The translations under genes were made by a program, and so were the position numbers. Below, in pieces: positions 3,480-26,400 of a stretch of DNA of 35,015 nucleotides. Source of the DNA: Promicromonosporaceae bacterium (GTDB taxonomy: Bacteria > Actinomycetota > Actinomycetes > Actinomycetales > Cellulomonadaceae); the NCBI GenBank assembly GCA_009783295.1, contig WRHK01000041.1, positions 1-35,015 of the forward strand, in the 5' to 3' direction. Numbering within the stretch: position 1 is the first letter of the stretch; the number at the start of each line of letters is the position of its first letter. Under the pieces are notes generated by a model. It did no database searches. It saw only the letters and a list, made by a program, of their open reading frames with translations, and had not been told where the DNA came from.

Positions 3480-4227
3480 ACCCCGTCGCCGCGACCCGGT
3501 CCGCATCGTCGCCTCCGTCGTCCTGCTGGCGGGCCTGGCCCTTGCCGCCACCTGGGCGTGGGACTACTACGGCACGTCCTGGCAGGCCAACCGCACCGCG
3601 GCGGCGGCCCTCCGCGACTTCACGCTGGCGAACCCCCTGCCCACCAACCTCGTCTCTGCCCTGCGCACGGACCTCGAGAACGCCCCCACCCGGCCCCGAG
3701 CCACGGACGGCGCCGTCATCGGCACGCTCTGGGTCCCGTCCTGGGCGGGCAAGGCCGGCACGCGCGGCGACGTCAACGACGGCCGCACCCCCGTCAAGGA
3801 GGGCGTCACGGTCCGCGTGCTCGACTCCGGCGCGGCGGGGCGCTTCGCGGAGGGTCAGCAGCCCGGCGAGGTCGGCAACGTCAGCCTCGCAGGCCACCGC
3901 CGCACCTACGGCGACAACTTCCTGCACGTCGACGCGCTCGTGCCCGGCGACGTCGTCGTCATCGAGACGCCCGACGCCTGGTTCGTCTACGAGGTCGAGG
4001 TCCCCGGCTACCTCGTCGCCCCGCAGGACGGCGCCGACGTGATCGGCCGCGCCCCGCACGGCCTGCCCGACGGCGGCCGGTACCTGACCCTGGTGAGCTG
4101 CCACTCCGTGGTCGACGGCGCGTGGGGCAACGACCACCGGATCATCGTGCACGCCCGCGCCGTGGGCTGGCTCCCCCACGGCGACGGGCTGCCTCCCCAG
4201 CTCGCCGGCCTCGCCGTGCCGGGCTAG
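3472..4227 (+). CDS. Class E-like sortase, probable pilus anchoring or accessory sortase
   Basis: A 251-residue membrane-bound sortase. ATG 3472 follows GGGAGG and overlaps the previous sortase by 8 bp. It has one N-terminal TM segment (about 12-29) and no C-terminal TM. Catalytic residues seen are His142 (SLAGHRRTYG), Cys210 (TLVSC, with Ser in place of the usual Thr before Cys) and Arg223 (NDHR). The AGHRRTYG and PGDVVVIETPDAWFVYEV stretches resemble actinobacterial class E sortases. In related systems a second, non-polymerising sortase attaches the finished pilus to peptidoglycan; that role here is inferred from the pairing. The product could instead serve as a general housekeeping sortase encoded in this locus. 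Its TAG stop shares the palindrome CTAG with the stop of the convergent membrane-protein gene. Confidence 0.85.
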   Translation: MPRPRRRDPVRIVASVVLLAGLALAATWAWDYYGTSWQANRTAAAALRDFTLANPLPTNLVSALRTDLENAPTRPRATDGAVIGTLWVPSWAGKAGTRGDVNDGRTPVKEGVTVRVLDSGAAGRFAEGQQPGEVGNVSLAGHRRTYGDNFLHVDALVPGDVVVIETPDAWFVYEVEVPGYLVAPQDGADVIGRAPHGLPDGGRYLTLVSCHSVVDGAWGNDHRIIVHARAVGWLPHGDGLPPQLAGLAVPG

Positions 4228-5389: not shown

Positions 5390-5413
5390 GGGGTTCATCC
5401 TCCCCCGTCGTGA

Positions 5414-5432
5414 GGTTTCGACAAGCTCAACC
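5414..5432. repeat. Dispersed-type repeat GGTTTCGACAAGCTCAACC
   Basis: This 19-mer spans the marR stop codon (its reverse complement reads GGTTGA...) and the start of the marR-coaE gap. The ends GGTT/AACC are complementary. From memory, this sequence (often extended to GTGG...CCAC) is a very common intergenic repeat in Micrococcales genomes. That is recollection, not a search result, and only one copy occurs in this window. Confidence 0.45.
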
Positions 5433-12185: not shown

Positions 12186-12998
12186 ATGAGCGACGTCGAC
12201 TCCGTGGGATACCAGCATGTGCCCGACGCCGAGGGCGGCGCCGCCGGGCGCACCTGGTGGGACGCGAACGCGGTCGAGTACCTCGACGAGCACGGCGCGT
12301 TCCTGGGCGGCGCCGGGTTCCGCTGGGGCCCCGAGGGGCTCACCGAGGCCGAGGCCGGGCTGCTGGGCGACGTCGCCGGGAAGCGGGTGCTCGAGGTCGG
12401 GGCGGGGGCGGCGCAGTGCTCCCGCTGGCTCGCGGGGCGGGGCGCCGACGTCGTCGCCACCGACGTGTCGCACGGGATGCTCGCCGGGGGTGCCGCGCTC
12501 GACGCCGCCGCGGGCGTCCGGGTGCCCGTCGTGCAGGCGGACGCGCGCGACCTGCCGTTCGCGCACGAGAGCTTCGATGTCGTCTTCACGTCGTTCGGGG
12601 CGATCCCCTTCGTGCCCGACGGAGTGCGGGTGCACGCCGAGGCCGCGCGCGTGCTGCGCCCCGGCGGCCGGTGGGTGTTCTCCGTGACGCACCCGCTGCG
12701 GTGGGCGTTCCCCGACGACCCGAGCCTGCGCGGGCTCACGGCGACGCGCTCGTACTTCGACCGCCGGCCGTACGTCGAGCGGGACGCGGCGGGCCGGGTG
12801 CTCTACGCGGAGTACCACCGGACGCTCGGCGACCACGTGCGCGAGGTCGTGGCGGCGGGGCTGCGGATCCTCGACGTGGTGGAGCCGGAATGGCCGTCCT
12901 GGAACGACGAGGTCTGGGGCGGCTGGGGCCCGGAGCGGGGGGCGTACCTGCCGGGGACGGCGATCTTCGTGACGGAACGCCCGCCCCTCGCGAGATAG
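12186..12998 (+). CDS. Class I SAM-dependent methyltransferase
   Basis: A 270-residue methyltransferase. Motif I is VLEVGAGAAQCSRWLA (68-83), followed by the acidic residue of strand beta2 (ATDVS, Asp93), DARDLPFAHESFDVVFTSFG (motif II region) and ARVLRPGGRWVFSVTHP (motif III region). The C-terminal third (EYHRTLGDHVREVVAAGLRILDVVEPEWP) resembles ubiquinone/menaquinone-type and small-molecule methyltransferases of Actinobacteria. The substrate is unknown. ATG 12186 has GGGAAG nearby upstream. The last two codons and stop (GCG AGA TAG) are the first unit of the CGCGAGATAG array, including the rare codon AGA. Confidence 0.88.
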   Translation: MSDVDSVGYQHVPDAEGGAAGRTWWDANAVEYLDEHGAFLGGAGFRWGPEGLTEAEAGLLGDVAGKRVLEVGAGAAQCSRWLAGRGADVVATDVSHGMLAGGAALDAAAGVRVPVVQADARDLPFAHESFDVVFTSFGAIPFVPDGVRVHAEAARVLRPGGRWVFSVTHPLRWAFPDDPSLRGLTATRSYFDRRPYVERDAAGRVLYAEYHRTLGDHVREVVAAGLRILDVVEPEWPSWNDEVWGGWGPERGAYLPGTAIFVTERPPLAR

Positions 12999-13193
12999 CG
13001 CGCTCGCCCGCGAGATAGAACCCTGGAGCGCGAGATAGCGCTCCGGGCCGCGAGATAGAGCGTCGCCGCGCGAGATAGAGCGCTCGGGGCCGGGATGGTG
13101 GCTCTATCTCGCGACCCAGCGCTCTATCTCGCGGGCGCTAGCGCTATCTCGCGAGCGCACGCGCTATCTCGCGGTCACACGCTCTATCTCGCG
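12989..13193. repeat. Symmetric inverted tandem array of CGCGAGATAG, exact 20-bp period
   Basis: Five perfect direct copies of CGCGAGATAG start at 12989, 13009, 13029, 13049 and 13069; a degenerate sixth (GCCGGGATGG) lies at 13089. Five perfect inverted copies (CTATCTCGCG) start at 13104, 13124, 13144, 13164 and 13184. Period is exactly 20 bp (10-bp unit, 10-bp variable spacer) in both halves, and all ten copies are mirror-symmetric about 13091. Many units extend to CGCGAGATAG(A/C)GCGC. The array is the whole 3' space between two convergent genes; its outermost units encode Ala-Arg-stop of both. Folded as RNA from either strand it gives about five 10-14-bp helices separated by internal loops. 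I do not recognise it as a described element. It could be a two-way terminator, a protein-binding array or an expanding repeat. Confidence 0.9.
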
Positions 13194-14281
13194 GGGTTGC
13201 GCGTCGTGATCGCCGGGACCGTGATCGCGGCCAGCGTCAGGGCCACGCCGATCAGCGTCGTCACCGCGGGGGTGCCGCCGCCGGCGAGGTCCAGCAGGAG
13301 CGCCCCCGTGATCTGGCCCGCGATCAGGGACAGCGCGAGCAGCAGGGCACCGATGCGGTGCACGACGGCAGCCGCAGTTCCGATGAAGACCACGCCGAGC
13401 GCGCCGCCCGTGTACATCCACCACTCGGACGGGAAGCCGCCCGACGGCAGGCCCTGGATCAGCAGCGAGACGCCCAGGGCGACCAGCAGCACCACCGTGC
13501 CGGCGAGGAAGTTCACGAACGTCGCGGCCAGGGCGCCTGCGCCGCGGTCGACGCGGTCGCCGAACCGGGCGTGGCTCGCCGTCGTCTCGACGCGGCCGTT
13601 GACCGCGTGCTGCGCGGCGACGAACACGCCGGCCACCACGGGCAGGGCGACGAGCCCGAGGTTCTGGCCCGAGCCGAGGTTGCGCCAGTGGCTCACGAGC
13701 ACGGCCGCGACGGCGAGCGCCGGGCCGACGGCGCGGCCCAGCGTGATCGCGCGCTTGCCGCCCGGGGCGAAGCCGAGGCGGTCGCAGAACAGCGAGCTGA
13801 CGGACTGGCCGGCGGTCACGGCGACGACGAACAGCGCGACGCCCAGCGACCCGACGGTGATGCCCTGGGCGGTGACGAACAGGCCGCCGGCGGCGCCGCC
13901 GATCACCTGGAACCACCGCAGGCGGCCGATGCCGGCCACGCCGGGGTGGGCGGCCTTCATGGCGTCGCTGGCGCCCGGGCGGCCGGCGCGCAGGCTGTCC
14001 CACACACGGACCAGGCCGTTGCGAGCCTTGGGCGAGAACGCGACGAGCACGCCGAGGATGGCGAGCGCCGAGGCGAAGTTGATGGTGGCCGCGAGGAAGC
14101 CGTTGCCGAGCGCGGCGCCGAACGAGCCGTTGACGCGGCTCTGGACGGAGGAGACGAGGCCGGCGCCGAGCGCGGCGGCGACGCCGGCAGCGCGGACGCG
14201 GTCGAAGCGGCGCGAGGCGCCGGAGGTGAGGGTCGCGTCGGCCTGCGAGGTCGTGGTGCGGGAGGGCGCGGTGGTGGTCAC
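13184..14281 (-). CDS. DMT-superfamily transporter with two DUF606 (YdcZ-like) halves
   Basis: An integral membrane protein of about 365 residues made of two DUF606/YdcZ-like halves, each with about five TM segments. The first half begins AALGAGLVSSVQSRVNGSFGAALGNG, the second VAGVFVAAQHAVNGRVETTASHARFG; the repeated Q-x-x-V-N-G motif shows the internal duplication. Single-domain members normally pair as two small genes, so this is a fused form. The substrate is not known. I favour GTG 14281, since TACCCT sits eight bases upstream (leaderless pattern) and the protein starts VTTTAPSRTT; GTG 14302 would add seven residues but abuts its only SD-like sequence. The final codons (GCG AGA TAG) come from the last unit of the repeat array. 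Confidence 0.85.
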   Translation of the reverse strand: MTTTAPSRTTTSQADATLTSGASRRFDRVRAAGVAAALGAGLVSSVQSRVNGSFGAALGNGFLAATINFASALAILGVLVAFSPKARNGLVRVWDSLRAGRPGASDAMKAAHPGVAGIGRLRWFQVIGGAAGGLFVTAQGITVGSLGVALFVVAVTAGQSVSSLFCDRLGFAPGGKRAITLGRAVGPALAVAAVLVSHWRNLGSGQNLGLVALPVVAGVFVAAQHAVNGRVETTASHARFGDRVDRGAGALAATFVNFLAGTVVLLVALGVSLLIQGLPSGGFPSEWWMYTGGALGVVFIGTAAAVVHRIGALLLALSLIAGQITGALLLDLAGGGTPAVTTLIGVALTLAAITVPAITTRNPAR

Positions 14282-14289
14282 GAACGCCC

Positions 14290-14295
14290 AGGGTA
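14290..14295 (-). promoter_or_regulatory. Candidate leaderless -10 element of the DMT transporter gene
   Basis: TACCCT on the minus strand lies eight bases before GTG 14281. The only SD-like AGGGAAG is 20 bases away from that start, so a leaderless mRNA explains the start better. Confidence 0.35.
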
Positions 14296-14355
14296 GGAAC
14301 ACCTTCCCTAGCGGTCCCGCGCCGAGGCGGGCTGCGCGCGGGTCCGCGGCGCGGA

Positions 14356-23435: not shown

Positions 23436-26400
23436 GAGCCACCTCCACGATGTTGTTCCACACGTTCTCGTCCCACTGGCCGTCGCCGTGGATCGCGATG
23501 CCGTCCGCCTCGGCCTGTGCCAGGGCGGCGCGCACGCGGGCCCAGCCCAGCGGCAGCACGCGCGAGAAGCGCGCGCGGGCGGCGTTGTCGGCCAGCAGCG
23601 CGGCGGCGACGTTCGAGCCCGTCTGCTCGACGTGGCGGCGCAGCAGCGCCTGGACCGTCTCCCAGTCGGCGTCGTCGAGCGGGCCGACCTCGAGCTCCCT
23701 GGACGTCACGGCGGCCGCGTTGACCGCCGAGGCGCGCAGGTCGAGCACGTAGGCCGTGCCGCCCGACATGCCGGCGCCGAGGTTGCGGCCCGTCGGGCCC
23801 AGTACCAGCACGGTGCCGCCCGTCATGTACTCCAGCGCGTGGTCGCCGACGCCCTCGACCACCAGGGTGGCGCCCGAGTTGCGGACGGCGAACCGCTCGC
23901 CCGCGCGGCCGCGCAGGTAGATCTCGCCCGACGTCGCGCCGTAGCCGATGACGTTGCCGGCGATGACGTTCGCCGCGCCCTCGAGCACCGACGCCTTGTC
24001 CGGGCGCACCACCACGAGGCCGCCCGACAGGCCCTTGCCGACGTAGTCGTTGGCGTCGCCGAACAGGCGCAGCGTGACGCCGTGCGGCAGGAACGCCGCG
24101 AACGACTGCCCCGCCGAGCCCGTGAGGGTCACGTCGATGGTGCCGTCCGGCAGGCCCTCGCCGCGGTAGCGCTTGGTGACCTCGTGGCCCAGCAGCGTGC
24201 CGACGGTGCGGTTGACGTTGCGGACCGGCAGCTCGATGGTCACGGGCGTGCCGTCCACGAGCGCCGGCTGCGCGAGCGCCACCAGCTGGTTGTCGAGCGC
24301 CTTGGCCAGGCCGTGGTCCTGCGCGTGGGTGCGGCGCAGCGCCGAGCCCTTGGCCGGGATGGGCTGCTCGAGCACGGGCGCCAGGTCGAGGCCGACCGCC
24401 TTCCAGTGCTCGACGGCCTTGCGGGTGTCGAGCACCTGCACCTGGCCGACGGCCTCGTCGATCGACCGGAAGCCGAGCGACGCGAGGTGCTCGCGCACCT
24501 CCAGGGCGATGAACTCGAAGAAGTTCACGACGAACTCGGGCTTGCCCGTGAACCGCTCGCGCAGCTCCGGGTTCTGCGTGGCCACGCCCACCGGGCAGGT
24601 GTCCAGGTGGCAGACGCGCATCATGATGCAGCCCGAGACCACCATGGGGGCGGTCGCGAAGCCGAACTCCTCGGCACCGAGCAGCGCCGCCACGACGACG
24701 TCGCGGCCGGTCTTCATCTGCCCGTCGACCTGCACCGTGATGCGGTCGCGCAGGTCGTTGAGGACCAGGGTCTGCTGGGTCTCGGCCAGGCCGATCTCCC
24801 ACGGCGTGCCCGCGTGCTTGAGCGACGTGAGGGGCGAGGCGCCCGTGCCGCCGTCGTGCCCCGAGATGAGGACGACGTCGGCGTGCGCCTTGGAGACGCC
24901 GGCCGCGACCGTACCCACGCCGAACTCGGAGACGAGCTTGACGTGGATGCGCGCGGCGGGGTTGGCGTTCTTGAGGTCGTGGATCAGCTGAGCCAGGTCC
25001 TCGATCGAGTAGATGTCGTGGTGCGGCGGCGGCGAGATGAGCCCGACGCCCGGCGTCGAGTGACGCACCTCCGCGACCCACGGGTACACCTTGGCCGGCG
25101 GGAGCTGGCCGCCCTCGCCGGGCTTGGCGCCCTGCGCGAGCTTGATCTGGATGTCGTCGGCCTGCGTGAGGTACTCGCTGGTGACGCCGAACCGGCCGGA
25201 CGCGACCTGCTTGACCCGCGAGCGGCGCTCGGGGTCGTACAGGCGCGCCGGGTGCTCGCCGCCCTCGCCCGTGTTGGAGCGCGCGCCGAGGCGGTTCATC
25301 GCGATGGCGAGCGTCTCGTGCAGCTCCTGGGACACCGAGCCGTACGACATGGCGCCCGTGTTGAAGCGCTTGACGATCTCGCTGACCGGCTCGACCTCGT
25401 CGATCGGGATCGGCTCGCGCTCCGGGGTGAAGCGCAGCAGGCCGCGCAGCGTCATGAGCCGGCGCGACTGCTCGTCCACCCGCCGCGTGTACTCGCGGAA
25501 GATGTCCATCCGGCCCGTGCGCGTGGAGTGCTGGAGCTTGAACACCGTCTCCGGGTCGAAGAGGTGCTCCTCGCCGTCGCGACGCCACTGGTACTCGCCG
25601 CCCGTGACCAGGCGCTTGTGCGGGTCGGGGTTGCCCGACGGCGGGTACGCCTCGGCGTGGCGCGCCGCGACCTCGGCCGCGACGACGTCGAGGCCGACGC
25701 CGCCCAGGCGGGAGGTGGTGCCCGCGAAGTAGTCGTCCACGAGCTCCTGCGAGAGGCCGACGGCCTCGAAGATCTGCGCCCCGCGGTAGGACATGATCGT
25801 CGAGATGCCCATCTTGCTCATGACCTTGAGCACGCCCTTGCCGAGCGCCTTGATGAGGTTCGCGACCGCCTTCTCGGGCGTGACGTCGAGGTAGCCGCGC
25901 ACGGCCAGGTCCTCGACGGTCTCCATCGCCAGGTACGGGTTGACGCACGCGGCGCCGTAGCCGATGAGCAGCGCGACGTGGTGCACCTCGCGCACGTCAC
26001 CGGCCTCGACCACGAGCGAGATCTGCGTGCGCGTGCGACGGCGCAGCAGGTGGTGGTGCACCGCGGACGTGAGCAGCAGCGACGGGATCGGCGCGAGCTC
26101 GGCGTTCGACTCGCGGTCGCTGAGCACGATGTGCGTCGCGCCCTTCTCGATCGCCTCGTCGACCTCGGCGAAGATCGCCTCGAGCCGGTCGTACAGGGCG
26201 GCGCCGCCACCCGCGACCGAGTAGAGGCCGCGCACCATGAAGGAGCGGAAGACGCCCTCGAGGCGCTCGTCCTTGGCGACGTGCACGATCTTGGCGAGCT
26301 GGTCGTTGTCGACCACCGGGAAGTCGAGCACGAGCTTGCGCGCGTGCTGGGCGTCGTCGGCGAGCAGGTTCGGCTCCGGGCCGATGGCGCTGCCGAGCGA

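Follow-up and report, generated by a model that had tools for sequence, protein, structure and literature searches.

I-type terminators located near the stop codon are described for mycobacteria in an excerpt of PMC12288462, the reference list of which contains two titles that conflict on whether the mycobacterial polymerase needs a U-tract. For Streptomyces, an excerpt of PMC8269248 covers transcript ends that are U-poor, structured and bidirectional, the bidirectional ends being those of Streptomyces clavuligerus. As far as these excerpts go, the I-type terminators of GC-rich actinobacteria combine a stable GC-rich stem and little or no U-tract with a position near the stop codon, and these traits are shared by the repeat arrays described here. 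However, ordinary I-type terminators each consist of one hairpin, with sequences that are unrelated to one another, as also found in the congeners of the present organism, whereas the arrays carry one 13-bp sequence at dozens of loci, set on a 20-bp lattice with up to 13 units in the largest array. According to an excerpt of PMC3049150, pneumococcal BOX elements are built of modules, the internal ones varying in number, and SPRITE elements are terminator-like and enriched near gene 3'-ends. Both resemble the arrays in being dispersed repeats. In contrast to BOX with its distinct end modules (boxA, boxC), the modules of the arrays are all alike and form mirrored halves without special ends: each of 49 arrays inspected by eye starts and finishes with ordinary units.

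The array first noticed lies in a window of 35,015 nucleotides from a Promicromonosporaceae bacterium (assembly GCA_009783295.1, contig WRHK01000041.1; "window" denotes this whole stretch). Between positions 12989 and 13193 it contains ten copies of CGCGAGATAG, five on each strand, which follow each other in steps of 20 bp and show no mismatch (Table 1). The arrangement is exactly mirror-symmetric about position 13091 (12989 + 13193 = 2 × 13091), and the number, orientation, step and symmetry of the units given by the sequence-only reading are thus confirmed to the base. The conserved unit, which that reading had put at 10 bp, comprises 13 bp, CGCGAGATAG[A/C][G/A]C. Elsewhere in the window, matches to CGCGAGATAG at up to one mismatch are limited to two lone sites (1343 and 19634), and the total of 12 such matches was reached by none of 100 shuffles.

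Table 1. Coordinates of the array and its flanking genes in the window.
Feature	Positions	Strand	First position of CGCGAGATAG	Remarks
Methyltransferase-like flanking gene	12186..12998	+		Named from sequence reading; ends Pro-Leu-Ala-Arg-stop within unit 1
Unit 1	12989..13001	+	12989	10-bp core + CGC; contains TAG stop of methyltransferase-like ORF
Unit 2	13009..13021	+	13009	
Unit 3	13029..13041	+	13029	
Unit 4	13049..13061	+	13049	
Unit 5	13069..13081	+	13069	Innermost direct unit
Centre	13082..13100			Class A (inward) array; start-to-start gap 35, commonest gap 24
Unit 6	13101..13113	-	13104	Innermost inverted unit
Unit 7	13121..13133	-	13124	
Unit 8	13141..13153	-	13144	
Unit 9	13161..13173	-	13164	
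Unit 10	13181..13193	-	13184	Contains TAG stop of transporter-like ORF
Multi-pass transporter-like flanking gene	13184..14302	-		Convergent; named from sequence reading; ends Asn-Pro-Ala-Arg-stop within unit 10

The window array is one of dozens in this genome (3.98 Mb, 119 contigs) and not a one-off. The genome contains 101 exact unit pairs separated by 8–12 bases, 237 occurrences of the exact 13-mer CGCGAGATAGMRC and 124 matches to CGCGAGATAG-N{5,30}-CGCGAGATAG; all among the 100 matches listed for this gap-variable pattern are spaced 20 or 40. Stretches around the exact-pair matches (100 listed of 101; 100 listed of 124) yielded 49 arrays with 332 units, and further arrays, for example on C2 near 33000, C5 near 25900, C57, C63, C65 and C103, lie outside this set. 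Successive units on the same strand are 20 bp apart in 232 of 240 cases, a count with a slight bias to 20 because units with two mismatches were added at 20 or 40 bp only. Spacers of strict length and variable sequence, remarked on for the single array, are accordingly a genome-wide rule. A logo of 330 units displays 13 conserved and seven nearly information-free positions (73.5% G+C). The 10-bp core owes part of its conservation to the selection of units, for which as many as two mismatches were allowed; the three positions that follow the core are 68–95% conserved although they were not used in unit picking, and the next seven are near random.

The 49 arrays comprise 28 inward (direct then inverted), 12 outward, six direct-only (two of them at contig ends) and three mixed layouts. 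The start-to-start gap at the centre of inward arrays is 24 in 9 of 28. In all 12 outward arrays the central units are offset by 6, forming the palindrome CTATCTCGCGAGATAG (16 bp), in some cases with one base changed. Within class A, the unit number of one arm is correlated with that of the other (r = 0.60, p = 0.0004, n = 28), and class B shows no such correlation (r = 0.26, p = 0.23). Arrays are found within about 100 bp of contig ends in C32, C38, C79 and C86; the assembly thus seems to break at arrays, and their true number is probably higher. On C5, exact 13-mers at 25833, 25914 and 25995 are 81 bp apart, which suggests a larger repeating block made up of four units and one extra base.

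The location of the arrays at gene 3'-ends, which the sequence-only reading had missed, is the main clue. By gene calls from our own codon-usage script instead of an annotation, with doubtful starts at L087 and L088, 77 of the 91 gene ends near arrays are 3'-ends, and 69 of these 77 lie inside an array or at most 32 bp from one. Where both flanks were called (n = 45), the genes are convergent at 31 arrays, tandem at 11 and divergent at three. Convergent pairs make up 31 of 44 array-bearing gene pairs versus 29 of 272 array-less pairs in the same stretches, which are centred on arrays and do not represent a random sample. Inward arrays lie between convergent genes in 22 of 26 cases and outward arrays in 5 of 12 (Fisher p = 0.017). 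In 22 cases the stop codon is itself the sense-strand TAG of a unit, namely of unit 1 in 20, of unit 2 in two and of unit 3 in none. Each 20-bp step shifts the reading frame, so that stops in random frames would be distributed across three units; the preference for unit 1 is compatible with selection for short tails or with growth of the array from the stop codon.

RNA from the + strand of the window array folds with a calculated -150.9 kcal/mol (z -9.4 versus shuffles), and the array is palindromic at the level of units, which bears out the earlier statement that either transcript can fold into a ladder. Among 39 two-armed arrays (up to 230 bases) the median folding z is -8.4, a value that is large by construction because the units are inverted. 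The feature that characterizes I-type terminators, a stable hairpin no more than about 50 bp downstream of the stop codon, is present at the arrays, as given by the folding of the window array and the short distances to gene ends. The classical intrinsic terminator, a stem-loop with a U-rich tract, is absent: a scan of window positions 12800–13400 detected no U-tract terminator on either strand. No Rfam family scored above its gathering score at the window array; four matches to microRNA families, all far below their gathering scores, were read as mere hairpin shape and discarded.

To judge from these sequence features and the comparisons below, there is about an even chance that the array represents a family-level modular 3'-end element in expanded form, most likely a bidirectional, U-tract-free terminator or a 3'-end stabiliser. 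The basic module would be a palindromic hairpin of two direct and two inverted 13-bp units on the 20-bp lattice, situated no more than about 30 bp from stop codons and in many cases common to convergent genes. In RNA from either gene a unit would pair with an inverted unit, the innermost first, and the resulting structure would act as a bidirectional I-type (U-tract-free) terminator or stabilise the 3'-end. In this species, additional 20-bp units would have been gained on both sides, which may strengthen or lengthen the stem through the units alone. We infer that the arrays terminate or trim transcripts.

CRISPR arrays consist of repeats and spacers of about 20–50 bp each and occupy one or few loci, and REP/BIME elements are dispersed palindromic intergenic repeats that often occur as inverted pairs. 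Short repeats and regular spacing would also suit these elements, an iteron or a partition site, but any such identity is highly improbable, given 13-bp units and 7-bp spacers at dozens of dispersed gene-end loci. The 49 arrays examined differ in these dimensions from CRISPR, in agreement with the initial judgement, and their single units, unlike REP/BIME, are non-palindromic. A REP/RAYT origin was rejected, as Y1_Tnp (PF01797) was found in none of 11 genus genomes (this one and ten congeners) and in 5 of 14 in the control rings. Nothing similar to the window array was found in plasmids or phages, which likewise speaks against these elements and against a phage or plasmid origin; a lone viral-contig match is not an array, and a match in Thiodictyon is a plain two-copy tandem that may be due to chance. 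Among the matches listed in searches of the open-access literature there was no description of such elements and, for GCGAGATAG, no paper on this subject.

The wider search of host and related genomes that the sequence-only reading had called for revealed the many arrays in the host; however, the exact unit pair was absent from all ten congeners, four of which are only 65–79% complete, and related pairs at one mismatch were detected in 21 of 221 family genomes and 7 of 25 genera, this genome included; a lone pair in any one genome may be due to chance. At three mismatches, four of the ten congeners gave a single match each. The core 11-mer CGAGATAGAGC is its own textual mirror, which made the reversed-pattern controls of the one- and three-mismatch searches invalid, and these were left unused. 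Cellulosimicrobium carries a fixed 69-bp form, in which a pair of direct units and a pair of inverted ones occupy the 20-bp lattice; it was found in 13 of the 17 genomes, in as many as 17 copies, and the reversed 69-bp pattern had no match in this genus. One copy in the present genome fits the 69-bp form without mismatch, and among 296 genomes sampled from the class this genome was the only carrier. The exact 9-bp pair did not occur in a sample of 395 other genomes of the order, which evidently failed to include known carriers.

The 27 distinct 69-bp copies (26 from Cellulosimicrobium, one from genus g10) lie between convergent genes in 15 cases, tandem genes in 12 and divergent genes in none, and 20 gene ends coincide with the TAG of a unit, the outer unit in 14 and the second unit in six. 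In other relatives, direct-only arrays with spacings of 20–22 were seen by eye, and at L109 and L110 in Isoptericola a direct-only array stands, again by eye, between the stop codon and a separate hairpin. The Cellulosimicrobium search and the stretches from relatives (including L100, L109, L110 and L120) were taken with the spacing fixed at 20. Genus g113 was taken to be Cellulosimicrobium by the identity of element sequences in L106, L107 and L117 with those in the named L044, L039 and L045, and g2 likewise to be Isoptericola from L110 and L042.

The two arms of the Cellulosimicrobium elements covary in their outer spacers, with pairing at 8.36 of 11 positions versus 6.54 in shuffles (reached in 0 of 5000; 36 non-redundant elements, derived from 114 places, of which 75 were listed and 67 entered after eight near-copies from G507 were left out). 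The five centre positions pair no better than shuffles (1344 of 5000), and the units pair marginally above them (250 and 398 of 5000). Among 441 similar pairs of elements, which overlap and include orthologues and paralogues, 308 of 482 two-sided spacer changes preserve Watson-Crick pairing. One-sided spacer changes (1257) are more common than two-sided ones, so that the covariation could also stem from inverted duplication. In the present genome, the innermost spacers pair at 3.74 of 7 positions versus 2.92 expected (0 of 5000 draws, n = 34). Together with the covariation in Cellulosimicrobium, this favours a hairpin core of nucleic acid. In contrast, the outer spacers pair at chance level (2.80 versus 2.73, n = 45), and unit variants show no significant concordance in register (p = 0.07, 0.09 and 0.14), which indicates that, over most of its length, a long array is under no selection for detailed pairing. 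An RNA ladder as selected feature of the whole array was rejected on these grounds. This points to a hairpin core as in Cellulosimicrobium, with extra units outside it whose sequence and spacing are maintained on other grounds.

A bound protein is a serious rival to the favoured hairpin. A DNA-binding array, in which a sequence-specific protein would recognise the 13-bp core and bind cooperatively along the 20-bp lattice, forming a transcription roadblock, an insulator or a nucleoid anchor, is in our estimate unlikely. It would account for units that are fixed in sequence and spacing while the spacers are free, for the unpaired outer spacers, for the occurrence of direct-only arrays and for the palindrome CTATCTCGCGAGATAG or its variant at the centre of every outward array. 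B-DNA has 10.5 bp per turn, so that 20 bp correspond to 1.9 turns and successive units rotate by about -34 degrees. The proposal that all units face the same side of the DNA hence holds for neighbouring units only; across five units nearly half a turn is spanned. Cooperative protein binding, as proposed along with it, is weakened by the pairing of the innermost spacers and by the covariation in Cellulosimicrobium, which suggests a hairpin and not units alone. Moreover, the spacing, which is 20 in nearly all cases in the present genome, loosens to 20–22 at L100, L110 and L120 in relatives (by eye); irregular spacing in relatives, which the sequence-only reading had named as counting against it, was thus observed in part. 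A scan of ten flanking proteins revealed no regulator beside divergent or tandem arrays: nine match enzyme, transporter or uncharacterised domains (one below cut-off), and one has no match.

Orthologous junctions in congeners allowed six usable comparisons over five junctions, with strong hairpins in the congeners at two and none at three. At the L059 junction, G001 and G010 carry a pair of unrelated perfect hairpins, about 20 bp in size, at the site of the array, and at the L069 junction G001 has a 12-bp stem. At the L058, L070 and window junctions the compared congener shows weak inverted repeats only; at the window junction in another congener (L128), a 12-bp stem was seen by eye. The methyltransferase-like gene has 84–87% identical orthologues in five congeners, where the same neighbour is kept and no array is present. 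Across 800 kb of two congeners, strong inverted repeats occur at 22 of 84 convergent junctions versus 3% of random windows, and in the present genome at 6 of 20 convergent junctions without array. The three junctions with no strong hairpin, the lack of a U-tract terminator, the unpaired outer spacers and the existence of direct-only and divergent arrays speak against the terminator reading.

Two other repeats were noted in these comparisons. The junction orthologous to the L069 array contains a lone 15-bp tandem of GAGCACCGCACG in G001 (C1, 2073124–2073195), which occurs in one of the 11 genomes of the genus. Another dispersed intergenic unit, GGTTGAGCCTGTCGAAACC, lies at 5413–5431 (- strand) of the window and is mostly single in the stretches of this genome; in G010 it forms arrays (G010a 55473, 104271 and 113273) with a looser period near 31 bp, several of them inward and at convergent junctions. 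No paper containing the exact GGTTGAGCCTGTCGAAACC string was found in the open-access literature.

Alternatively, the arrays could be selfish or neutral palindromic repeats that spread or grow locally and survive where they are harmless, in convergent gaps and after stop codons, with no gain to the host. We regard this as possible, if doubtful. The patchy presence among congeners and in the family agrees with it, as do the recent tandem duplication of some units (neighbouring 7-bp spacers agree at 6 or 7 of 7 positions in 24 of 143 cases) and the recurrence of single spacers between arrays (87 exact cases versus a mean of 42.6 in column shuffles). A location near gene 3'-ends is likewise reported for pneumococcal BOX, RUP and SPRITE, where an excerpt of PMC3049150 ascribes it to weaker selection. 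However, the REP-type transposase is missing from all 11 genus genomes, the arrays share no ends beyond the units (by eye), and the three positions after the core are conserved, unlike the seven near-random ones that follow. Moreover, at L059 the array replaced a hairpin instead of adjoining one. Mobility of whole arrays was rejected: single spacers recur, but spacer dimers match in 74 of 10019 comparisons between arrays (uncontrolled) without any long shared block. The congener junctions lack the array and are too diverged to reveal a target-site duplication, which along with terminal inverted repeats would mark a MITE.

With respect to array growth, the 119 adjacent spacers that are not near-identical have an identity of 0.413, versus 0.410 for spacers of different arrays, with no intermediate excess. 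Divergence from two congeners at fourfold sites amounts to 0.68 of saturation (41 and 38 orthologues), and duplication followed by drift since the split from the congeners would be expected to leave intermediate identities. Three accounts are conceivable: the arrays may predate the genus and have disappeared elsewhere, close copies next to each other may be rapidly deleted so that diverged ones alone survive, or units may be added with new spacers; the first two accounts are the more conservative ones. At 3905–4060 of L085, five near-identical 20-bp tandem units of the CTAACTCGCG variant are a sign of recent local amplification. That the spacers are bimodal, despite the absence of the exact pair from ten congeners and the 0.68 saturation, may be taken as a sign of a dedicated building process. 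Such a process might add 20-bp modules singly at gene ends, keeping the 13-bp core and supplying a fresh 7-bp spacer, and a core-specific factor might use them as bidirectional transcription barriers, a scenario that we consider improbable.

If the interpretation as an expanded 3'-end element is confirmed, the arrays would constitute a genome-wide, lineage-specific modular repeat that serves as a gene-end signal, in a setting where termination signals are poorly understood and disputed. Since one species has an array where its congeners have none, or at some junctions an unrelated hairpin, U-tract-free termination becomes directly testable, and the combination of a fixed 20-bp lattice with unrelated spacers raises the clear question of how the arrays grow.
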